A stretch of 64,000 nucleotides of DNA from Polychytrium aggregatum (taxonomy: Eukaryota; Chytridiomycota; Chytridiomycetes; Polychytriales), in assembly GCF_025602895.1 (NCBI RefSeq), contig NW_026516214.1, positions 124,001-188,000 on the forward strand. The letters are read 5' to 3'. How positions within the stretch are numbered: the stretch's first letter is position 1; every line of letters begins with the position of its first letter. This document shows positions 1,935-61,380 of this stretch, piece by piece. The notes below the pieces were generated by a model, which was given only the letters and a program-made list of their open reading frames with translations, was not told the origin of the DNA and made no database searches. The position numbers were made by a program, and so were the translations under genes.

Positions 1935-2931
1935 GGTCGAAGGGCGCTGTATCAGAGGCTCCAAGATGGATGCACAGAGCGTCGTTGGTGTGCAGGCGCC
2001 GCCAAAAGGCAAGACAGCAGCCAGCCCTGCATCGTCTTGATCGGATCGCTCTGCGTTGTCAACCTCGATGATGATTGGGAGGGATCTGCAGCACAACCAA
2101 ACGTGAGCATGCTCCCGCGCCGTCTGTTGCCGTCGTGCTGATAGCTCTCTCCGGCCGGATTCCGATCGATACGATGATCATGGTGGGCTTTACAGGCGAT
2201 CCAAAAAACGGGACACCCTTGATTTTGACCATTGATCAAATATTTTGTTACCCAATACCATCGCGCGCTGGCCATGACCATTCGCCAGTGTGTCCAAGAG
2301 CGCCATTCACCGCTGGCACTCCGAGAACAGTGTGCAGGTCGATTGTGGAGACCGGAGAGTGACCGGCGGTGTTCACTCGGAGGCTGCCAAAGTGATTTGA
2401 TTTTATTTCTTATGGTATAGTTGGACAAACGCCATCACAGACATGCTATCATATGGGCTGTGGGCAAGTGTCCCATTTCCTCCTGAATACAGCGTATGAA
2501 GAGAGCCACAAGGAGTGTGTGGAGTCCCGCACCACGGATGGATGGAGCGATGCATACTGATGCGAGTGCGTACTTTAAACTGACGGATAGATATCCAAGA
2601 GAGAGTGAGAGAGAGAGAAATGGCCGCGATGGCGGAGGACATATTGTAAAGATCAAAGGGCACTCCAAAAGAGCAGCACCCGAGGCTCGACTGGCACTGT
2701 GCAGCCTGCCATAGCAATCAACCTGGATCAAAGGCAGAGGCGCAACAGCACACCGCGAGCGACGAGTAGCAAGCAACGGGCAGCGAAAGGAGCGCGGGAA
2801 TAATACGAAAGCCGAGCAGTGTGAGCGAGTGCGAGGTATTGGATGTTGGGGCCGTCTTGGAGTGGCCGAGAGGTGGTAAGGATGTGCTTGGAGTCATGCA
2901 AGAGTCCCAAGAAAAGTACGATCGCCTTCGT
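1935..2931. other. Intergenic, SCAR to C2H2-1
   Basis: No gene is supported here. The stretch is the upstream region of SCAR and the downstream region of the C2H2 gene ending at 2932. It contains one MITE-like element at 2192-2493, listed separately. A short GAGA-rich run lies near 2600-2625. Confidence 0.6.
2192..2493 (+). mobile_element. MITE-like element, copy A (about 300 bp, Fanzor-transposon derivative)
   Basis: The left end reads ACAGGCGATCCAAAAAACGGG then ACACCC. The right end, on the other strand, reads CTGTATTCAGGAGGAAATGG then GACAC. The shared core (AAA)YGGGACAC in inverted orientation marks the two termini. Inside, ATG at 2274 sits at the same place as the conserved ATG of the other copies. 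The frame one base off that ATG encodes a helix-turn-helix-like run, ASVSKSAIHRWHSE (2284-2325), aligning with GVSKKTVRRWSRE in copy B. The distal part (TCACTTTGGCAGCCTCCGAG on the complement, about 2380-2400) is shared nearly base for base with copy D. No intact ORF remains. No clear target-site duplication is visible. Confidence 0.7.
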
Positions 2932-19389: not shown

Positions 19390-19680
19390 ACAGTCAATCC
19401 AATAAAAAACGGGACACCCTGGTTTTTTTGACCATTGATCAAATATTTTGTTTACCCAATACCATCGCGCACCGACCATGGCCATTTGCCACACACTTGA
19501 CTTTCGCACCGCTGCGTTACGATGCCATACCATCACTCGGTGTGTCCAAGAAGACCGTTCGTCGCTGGAGCAGAGAATGCAAACCATCCTCCAGCGAAGA
19601 GTATCACTCTCGCTTTGCCACACTGCCATCCAGCGAGCAGGACTCTCCCACAAGAGAGCCATGCAAGCGGAGCTGATTCA
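19390..19680 (+). mobile_element. MITE-like element, copy B (HTH-containing, right end unclear)
   Basis: The left end reads ACAGTCAATCCAATAAAAAA then CGGGACACCC, preceded by TT. The 75 bases after it match copy A closely (TTGACCATTGATCAAATATT, then ACCCAATACCATCGCGC). ATG at 19478 opens MAICHTLDFRTAALRCH, aligning with MAKHSTLDFRIAAVR in copy D. After an apparent one-base frameshift the frame reads LGVSKKTVRRWSRECK (19532-19579), a helix-turn-helix pattern, and runs open to a stop at 19674-19676. This copy keeps more of the ancestral N-terminal coding region than the others. I cannot place the right terminus; a weak candidate lies near 19768. Confidence 0.65.
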
Positions 19681-41579: not shown

Positions 41580-42024
41580 TGTGTATTCGAGACCCAGAGA
41601 AAGCGGCACACCTAGCTTATAGTCGGTCCAGAAAAACGGAACAGTCACTTCCTGGCTTCAGCGGCCTGCAGCCTGCCGAACTTCCGTAGGCCCCAGTGAG
41701 CAAGCCGTGAGATTGTTTCCCGTCCTGGTTGGCAATCGAGTGGTTTTGGTTGGTTTGGGAAGCATGGTCTTGAATACACCCGGTCGATCTCCTGTGGCGA
41801 TGATCGACTGGCATGCCGAGATCATGTTCCTGGCTGCATTGATGTCTCGATCCCACAGCGCATGGCAGCTTGCACAGCTCCGGACAAAGTGTGGTTTCTC
41901 GATATCAAGATGGTGCTGTGCTTGGCCATGAATGCGATGAGCGAGTGGGTGTATTCAGGTTCCAGATAAAAACACTCTCTTGGTTAAAAACGGGGGTGTC
42001 CCATTTCATTTTGGAAACGCTGTG
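41580..42024 (-). mobile_element. Internally deleted Fanzor transposon, copy C (about 445 bp)
   Basis: Read on the minus strand. The left end at 42024 is CAGCGTTTCCAAAATGAAAT then GGGACACCCCC, nearly identical over 30 bases to copy D (CAGCATATCCAAAATGAAAT). The following 100 bases also match copy D, including the ATG at 41929 (ATGGCCAAGCACAGCACC). About 15-25 codons later the sequence switches to the C-terminal region of a Fanzor/TnpB-like nuclease. The right end near 41580 (TGTGTATTCGAGACCCAGAG then AAAGCGGCACAC, read on the plus strand) is a worn copy of the family right end. It therefore looks like one transposon with most of its gene removed, keeping the start of the ORF, its end and both termini. 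Confidence 0.65.
41670..41956 (-). pseudogene. Fanzor (OMEGA, TnpB-like RNA-guided nuclease) C-terminal remnant
   Basis: The minus-strand frame entering at about 41955 and stopping at TGA near 41670 reads LDIEKPHFVRSCASCHALWD, then RDINAARNMISACQSIIATG, then DRPGVFKTMLPKPTKTTRLP. CxxC followed by LWDRDINAARNM is the second half of the zinc ribbon plus the RuvC-III motif (RDxNAAxN) shared by TnpB and Fanzor; W before RD is usual in eukaryotic Fanzors. The D of RD is the last catalytic aspartate. The first CxxC and all upstream RuvC parts are absent, and a TGA precedes the segment, so it cannot be active. The frame differs from that of the ATG at 41929, as expected at a deletion joint. Confidence 0.8.
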
Positions 42025-60924: not shown

Positions 60925-61100
60925 TTGTGCCCGGCGTCGCAGCAATGGAGACGTGGAGGACGGAGCGGATTCGTGGCGATGGAGGAAAGTAGATGCGGCA
61001 CACTGAAAGCGAAACAGACCCGTGTTTGAATCCTGCGTGTCCGTTTTTCTCTGGGTGCCTGGGCGGAAGGACTGGGAGCGCCAATCGCCGCGCACTCTAT

Positions 61101-61380
61101 ACTGTATTCAGGGGGAAATGGGACACAACCCATTTGTCGGCGCAGTATGCGATGGCATGCGTCTAGCAAAGCCACAAGAAATATAACAGATCACTTTGGC
61201 AGCCTCCGAGTGAAGACCACCCTCCGAGTGAAGACCACCGGTCGCACTGCAGCGATGCGGAAATCGAGGGTGCTGTGTTTGGCCATGATTGCAATGAGTG
61301 GGTGGGTGTATTCAGGCCACAGAAAAAACACAGTCATGGCTCAAAACGGGGGTGTCCCATTTCATTTTGGATATGCTGTA
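61101..61380 (-). mobile_element. MITE-like element, copy D (about 280 bp)
   Basis: The minus-strand left end at 61380 reads TACAGCATATCCAAAATGAA then ATGGGACACCCCC. The right end at 61101, read on the plus strand, is ACTGTATTCAGGGGGAAATG then GGACAC. The two termini are inverted around AAATGGGACAC. ATG at 61286 opens MAKHSTLDFRIAAVRPVV, the best-preserved copy of the family N-terminus. A 17-base unit (CCTCCGAGTGAAGACCACC on the plus strand) is duplicated at about 61203-61240. The distal part matches copy A (TCACTTTGGCAGCCTCCGAG). Confidence 0.7.

Follow-up and report, generated by a model that had tools for sequence, protein, structure and literature searches.

A ghost of two-gene transposase-Fanzor mariners in Polychytrium aggregatum and a one-sided T at the insertion flanks of its family

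Introduction

The tail of a Fanzor nuclease gene lies in a short repeat at positions 41580 to 42024 of the window, the stretch of 64,000 nucleotides of Polychytrium aggregatum DNA analysed here, which raises the question of what kind of element this repeat descends from and whether the nuclease has any part in the persistence of the family. An earlier note made from the sequence had described a Fanzor remnant inside a 445-bp MITE-like element whose ends recur in three other copies in the window (A, B and D), and had derived the short elements by internal deletion from one Fanzor-encoding transposon. The role of Fanzors for their host transposons is an unsettled question, and in this genome the transposase, the nuclease, the ghosts and the insertion flanks are found together, with 200 exact type-1 5' ends. 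Our explanation as a whole, to which we give a probability of about 0.7, is that the window element is a ghost of a two-gene Tc1/mariner transposon, and that the TAM of the Fanzor selects the insertions that persist.

The window element and the other copies in the window

As described before, the Fanzor C-terminus SCASCHALWDRDINAARNM lies in the element, on the minus strand within 41909-41658. The bounds had to be corrected, since the inverted termini and TA sites delimit an element of 403 bp (41620-42022), so that the 445 bp had included 40 bp of left flank; the first 33 bases of the 445-bp stretch were reached in none of the other 42 matching rows of the genome. From 5' to 3', the element is composed of a terminal repeat, a leader, the codons MAKHST, the junction, the Fanzor tail with its stop codon, a hairpin and a terminal repeat. 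These parts and the other window copies are:

41620-42022, minus strand: ghost element, 403 bp, type-2 5' end fused to a Fanzor-A 3' end
42023-42024, no strand: decayed 5' copy of the TA target duplication, reading TG on the plus and CA on the minus strand, preceded by T in element orientation
41994-42022, minus strand: 5' terminal inverted repeat, type 2, CAGCGTTTCCAAAATGAAATGGGACACCC
41912-41929, minus strand: MAKHST, six codons, putative type-2 transposase start (from position and resemblance)
41912/41911, minus strand: deletion junction of the window element, directly after the MAKHST codons
41658-41911, minus strand: Fanzor-A C-terminal remnant, 83 codons from 41909, stop codon TGA at 41660-41658
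41628-41655, minus strand: 3' hairpin CCAGRAAG...YTTTCTGG, candidate omega-RNA stem, adjoining the terminus
41620-41643, minus strand: 3' terminal inverted repeat, Fanzor-A type
41618-41619, no strand: TA target duplication at the 3' end
2193-2494, plus strand: copy A, with a type-1 5' end, an HTH fragment of the transposase and a Fanzor-B 3' end, TA on both sides
19391-19659, plus strand: copy B, a transposase relic with type-1 5' end and two transposase fragments; a 3' end was not found in it
61100-61378, minus strand: copy D, with a type-2 5' end, a putative transposase start and a Fanzor-B 3' end, TA on both sides

The remnant matched Pfam PF07282 with an E value of 4.5e-4 and 20.7 bits, below the curated cut-off of 26.3, and it retains, apart from the RD motif, no more than the second CxxC of the zinc finger, the first cysteine pair having been deleted; we assign it to Fanzor because the full-length members of the family exceed this cut-off. 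A DNA search of the whole genome (64.7 Mb in 418 contigs, best 40 of 975 candidates scored) returned at least 43 matching rows for the window element. Since the deletion junction is spanned by 35 of these 43, a count that includes the window copy and allelic pairs, the element is a repeat and not a chance juxtaposition, and the same junction was found in 14 aligned non-identical copies, two allelic pairs among them. The left flank of the window insertion occurs only once in the assembly, so that no empty allele is visible. Like the ghosts defined by Saito (2023), the element has kept both inverted repeats and the 3' region and has lost the full Fanzor gene.

The proposal that the ends are shared with all three other copies applies to a short inverted-repeat core, and to the 5' end (the right side on the plus strand) in copy D, which is 85% identical over 115 bp. 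Beyond this core the 5' end is common to copy D only, since copies A and B have the different, type-1 5' end, and the Fanzor-A 3' end is present in none of the three. Likewise, the start of the open reading frame, ATGGCCAARCACAGCACC, had been placed in copies B and D; it is present at two places in the window, 41929 and 61286, both on the minus strand and the latter in copy D, and is absent from copy B. Given its position and its likeness to the start of the type-1 transposase (MTIRHTSDFRTAAL, as compared to MAKHSTLDFRIAAV in copy D), ATGGCCAARCACAGCACC is most likely a transposase start. A Fanzor reading frame beginning with MAKHST was ruled out: this start lies at the position of the transposase start, and in the window element the Fanzor part is read in a different frame.

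Full-length elements with a transposase and a Fanzor

Four full-length elements of 3.74-3.78 kb (L061, L084, L085 and L086), all at TA sites and all with a type-1 5' end, carry a Tc1/mariner transposase gene followed by a Fanzor1 gene. A single open reading frame from MAKHST to RDINAARNM, which had been predicted for the full-length element, was not found, and its place is taken by these two genes. The transposase of L084 and L085 is uninterrupted (310 aa; DDE_3 with E 7e-24 and 2e-20), and its frame is broken in L061 and L086. In accordance with the Tc1/mariner superfamily, the type-1 transposase has a DDE domain with the triad D145, D221 and E256, a DD34E spacing of 34 residues between D221 and E256, and an HTH whose HTH_23 match lies below the cut-off of that profile, and the elements have terminal inverted repeats and a TA target duplication. 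Both genes are uninterrupted in L085, where Fanzor-B has 790 aa, and in L084, where Fanzor-A of 854 aa ends 29 codons before the L061 frame, past all catalytic motifs. The full-length Fanzors P0001 and P0002 contain the Fanzor1 motif of Bao and Jurka (2013), D-X(125,275)-[TS][TS]XX-C4 zinc finger-X(5,50)-RD (D581, TSQVCSHC at 779, C809, C812 and RD in P0001; D539 and TSQVCSKC at 718 in P0002). They also have the signatures given by Yoon (2023), DPG in RuvC-I for Fanzors and TDG in WED for Fanzor1, with IDPG at 580 and 538 and TDG at 525 and 489, respectively. In a profile search, the Fanzor weakly matched SpuFz1 (8gkh, E 0.12), with LaTranC (0.077) and Cas12m (0.12) alongside.

The two-gene plan is common in the genome. 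At least 150 matches to the L061 transposase fragment, each at 97% or more, were scored among 467 candidates. Pairing all 150 listed transposase matches with 120 of the 150 listed PF07282 matches (those left out being 28 of other families or short forms, and 2 more) gave 43 transposase-Fanzor pairs on the same strand at a distance of 3.2-3.5 kb, and six further pairs exactly 855 bp apart, which are another deletion form. The L084 insertion has a contiguous empty allele with one TA (C5:18798-18997), 99% identical over the joined flanks; it was the only full contiguous empty site among eight insertions tested by joined flanks, the other seven giving none. In a small number of pairs, dN/dS was 0.23-0.35 between Fanzors of the same lineage and 0.15-0.31 between transposases, which indicates purifying selection on both genes.

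The expectation that a full-length parent of the window element exists elsewhere in the genome was thus borne out for the family, whose full-length members exist, but not for the exact combination of a type-2 5' end, a whole transposase and Fanzor-A. No full-length element with a type-2 5' end was found at the 10 loci read and among the best 40 of 368 candidates, 100 of 211 places with this end being listed. The window element is a MITE in being a short, non-coding and multiplied deletion derivative with terminal inverted repeats, although that search revealed no autonomous element sharing its type-2 5' end; we infer a parent in which a type-2 5' end preceded the same two genes. Of two outcomes named beforehand as speaking against a Fanzor-encoding parent, full-length elements with these ends encoding only an unrelated transposase and Fanzor genes with entirely different termini, neither occurred.

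Other Fanzor-related loci were seen as well. Further families are Fanzor2/TnpB-like, with EEYTSKTC...RD(I/V)NGARN and PF07282 scores of up to 70 bits (L039, L043, L048-L050 and L055). Three Fanzor-A copies without a transposase (L059:768-4222, L060:756-3924 and L062:601-4058) have a common 5' block, which starts with CACTATCAATTTTTTCCGG up to small gaps and includes a 43-nt transposase tail, and share much of their 3' flank, so that Fanzor-A appears to travel within a larger repeat. The L061 element (L061:772-4560) interrupts a stretch that may consist of Sel1-type repeats and whose left flank resembles several other places in the genome at 85-97%.

Two Fanzor lineages behind one transposase

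When L084 and L085 were compared in 100-bp steps, their identity was 89-100% up to the transposase stop codon and 32-77% beyond it; two Fanzor-B elements compared were 90-100% identical throughout. The transposases of L084 and L085 are 95% identical as proteins versus 42% for their Fanzors, and dS amounts to 0.138 for the transposase versus 1.53 for the Fanzor. Because identity drops at the transposase stop and dS differs to this extent, the pattern in these sequences appears best explained by a recombinational exchange in which the Fanzor and the 3' end were swapped together. Alternatively, gene conversion could have homogenised the transposase half with no recombinational swap of the Fanzor half, for which the many near-identical transposase copies (at least 150 scored at 97% or more) would speak, and a conversion that took in the entire 5' half would look much like a swap. 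However, the 5' end and the leader are also alike in the Fanzor-A and Fanzor-B elements compared, the breakpoint lies at the transposase stop, and the type-2 5' end, too, is found with both Fanzor 3' ends, as an exchange predicts. We therefore consider conversion an unlikely origin of this pattern and favor the exchange of Fanzor and 3' end.

Deletion classes

The short copies mix the two 5'-end types with the two Fanzor lineages. Hence their derivation by internal deletion from Fanzor-encoding transposons stands, but not from one parent transposon. Besides the 403-bp class with its common junction, module mapping of the fetched loci revealed a deletion class of 643-656 bp that has kept more of the Fanzor (L020, L028 and L033-L035), a 782-bp copy with a type-1 5' end (L036) and the ghost L042, which retains 300 nt of the transposase together with roughly the final 200 nt of the Fanzor side and combines the G variant of the 5' end with a Fanzor-A 3' end. 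Several classes are present in more than one copy, and the deletion classes have kept the Fanzor 3' end.

The 3' region and the remnant reading frame

The retained 3' end might be the source of an omega RNA. In the Fanzor-A 3' end, all eight pairs of a hairpin are formed in 22 of 30 copies, counting G-U, and no pair was altered on both sides among these 30 copies; covariation in Fanzor-B 3' ends was weak. The folding of seven 3' ends was not unusual, with six z-scores between -1.34 and 0 and one of -2.03, as compared to 0.19 for a 5'-end control. Additional conservation of the ghost-B 3' region was not found in nine copies, in which diversity was 0.114 in the 3' UTR versus 0.077 in the 5' leader. 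Homology with known Fanzors makes an omega RNA from the 3' end plausible, but the tests of conservation, folding and covariation did not support it.

A similar question arises for the 83 codons of the remnant, which might have been kept as a mini-protein in which the Fanzor tail serves as a zinc-finger regulator. Most of the listed copies have an open frame and, among 14 remnant copies, 29 of 75 distinct changes were synonymous versus an expected fraction of 0.264 (p 0.025). In contrast, changes confined to a single copy were neutral in the same 14 copies (9 of 29 synonymous, p 0.53), and the loss of the first cysteine pair and the out-of-frame start codon upstream also argue against such a protein. 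The older synonymous excess fits inheritance or conversion from coding copies. A retained mini-protein is therefore highly improbable, and we do not regard the remnant as a working protein.

A one-sided T at insertion flanks

The directly read flanks are those of the end-mapped loci and of 20 of the 43 full-length pairs, taken in the order of listing, with some allelic pairs remaining; three loci with repeated flanks and three already included were omitted, as were five loci for which end-finding gave no 3' end (L001, which is the window copy, L024, L074, L075 and L076). T preceded the 5' TA in 19 of 20 full elements, and A followed the 3' TA in 4 of 21. In the small sample of directly read ghosts, the corresponding numbers were 13 of 19 and 4 of 19 (p 0.008). 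With exact patterns searched genome-wide, T preceded TA at 184 of 200 type-1 5' ends, and A followed TA at 40 of 210 Fanzor-B 3' ends (Fisher p 2e-55), the two sets of ends being drawn from non-identical sets of elements and the counts including alleles and copies inside larger repeats. The value of 40 of 210 is near the expectation from base composition (window GC 0.589). T was also found in 9 of 10 deletion derivatives whose ends both matched exactly and whose 3' end was that of Fanzor-B, not all of them independent; these ten (281, 310, 381-383 and 1112 bp) are among 61 elements paired from 116 listed 5' ends and 140 listed 3' ends. In the 382-bp class, the members on contigs C34 and C79 are equally far from one and the same neighbour, another element, and look like a single insertion that was copied.

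The target choice of Tc1/mariner transposases is expected to be symmetric about TA. Since cut-and-paste transposition at a palindromic TA should, as judged from its mechanism, bias both sides equally, a one-sided T would not be expected from the transposase. It is, in contrast, what a TAM predicts, and we read it as a probable natural footprint of a TTA TAM of Fanzor-B. The preference also differs between 5'-end variants: within the fully listed range (100 of 184 places), T preceded TA at 90 of 92 ends with the 5' variant of full Fanzor-B elements versus 10 of 18 with the variants of Fanzor-A elements (p 4e-6). The 5' variant is a proxy for the lineage that held in all full elements whose variant was read (13 of 13 with Fanzor-B, 4 of 4 with Fanzor-A), with ghost L042 as an exception.

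On the preferred explanation, the ghosts would be non-autonomous deletion derivatives of a Tc1/mariner family with a DD34E transposase and Fanzor1, and the deletion in the window element would have joined an apparent transposase start to the Fanzor tail. The transposase would move full and deleted copies by cut-and-paste into TA; the Fanzor, directed by an omega RNA that comes from the 3' end and has the right flank as its guide, would cut the empty allele beside the 5' TAM, and repair of the cut allele would copy the element back. Insertions without a TAM would not be restored and would be lost, because of which the surviving Fanzor-B insertions would show TTA on the 5' side only. The ghosts would retain the 3' end because it is needed for binding of the transposase and possibly for a guide RNA supplied in trans.

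A simpler explanation is that the mariner transposase mobilises the short copies like any other deletion derivatives, that the Fanzor plays no role in their spread, and that an asymmetric transposase-DNA complex accounts for the one-sided T. Deletion derivatives of mariners are known to multiply without any nuclease, the two ends of the element differ in sequence, the ghost 3' region is without special constraint, and the type-2 5' ends have no clear preference for T (T 27, A 24 and G 3 of 54 exact matches, C being absent from the pattern and copies inside other repeats included). However, this explanation has to set aside the symmetric choice expected of Tc1/mariner, given that A after TA is close to base composition, and it leaves the difference in T preference between Fanzor-A and Fanzor-B 5' variants behind 95% identical transposases, as well as the purifying selection on both Fanzor lineages. 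We thus regard it as a serious but rather improbable account. The positions of these elements in the genome suggest that the recognition motif of the nuclease had a share in deciding which insertions survived. A wider reading is that the Fanzor and its 3' guide-RNA end form a cassette that mariners can exchange, that the TAM rather than the transposase decides persistence, and that ghosts follow by means of guides acting in trans; we consider the chances of this to be evenly balanced. A one-sided T that depends on the lineage variant behind virtually one transposase is a signature directly open to a TAM assay and, if the reading is true, would constitute genome-scale evidence for RNA-guided cutting that selects insertions of a eukaryotic cut-and-paste transposon.

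Relation to known systems

Mariners with a transposase and a Fanzor, as well as Fanzor ghosts, are known. According to the accessible part of Bao and Jurka (2013; PMC3627910), PGv-1 and PUl-1 combine a mariner-like transposase and Fanzor1 in one element and have TA target duplications, PUl-4 is a Fanzor-only relative with the same terminal inverted repeats, and PGv-1 is a single-copy viral element with a third protein. The elements described here resemble these in the Tc1/mariner transposase with Fanzor1 and in the TA duplications, but differ, as far as that part goes, in having two Fanzor lineages with one transposase, a sharp breakpoint, a large family and nested deletions. Spu-1 of Spizellomyces punctatus, in the portion of Saito (2023; PMC10432273) at hand, has inverted repeats of about 30 nt and 134 ghosts versus 42 Fanzor loci. 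No transposase is reported there inside the Spu-1 repeats, and only help in trans is suggested, whereas here the transposase lies within the same element; the Spu-1 ghosts have a similarity of about 75 nt, while the ghosts here have kept about 120-680 nt of the Fanzor 3' side. The same portion describes a parallel to the flanks, since CA is conserved outside the left end of the Spu-1 loci and matches the CATA TAM of SpuFz1, comparable to the T before TA here. For the Fanzor1 of SfAV and insect viruses, the available sections of Yoon (2023; PMC10711439) propose that the terminal inverted repeats and the target site duplication are part of the guide-RNA scaffold, and state that the SfAV guide RNA extends about 15 nt beyond the duplication; that element is described there as non-autonomous, with a Fanzor only and of unknown transposon family, unlike the two-gene mariner found here. 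KolobokP, in the part of its report that was accessible (PMC9587614), is likewise a DDE transposon with a second nuclease, but this is a His-Me finger homing endonuclease and is not RNA-guided. The nested deletion classes, the exchange of Fanzors behind virtually the same transposase and the one-sided, TAM-like flank appear to be new, no earlier report having been met in searches of open-licence literature.

Further observations on the copies

An approximately 18-bp tandem duplication was observed within the Fanzor-B tail of L073, which is window copy D, and of L074 and L077. Many loci form near-identical pairs on two contigs (C410/C412, C124/C379, C135/C373 and C364/C392), as in an assembly that contains both haplotypes. 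Pairs of type-2 5' ends that face each other at a distance of about 245 bp were seen at G000:C223:320672-320946, C223:766218-766489 and C325:15530-15801, and are possibly foldback-like ghosts with two 5' ends.
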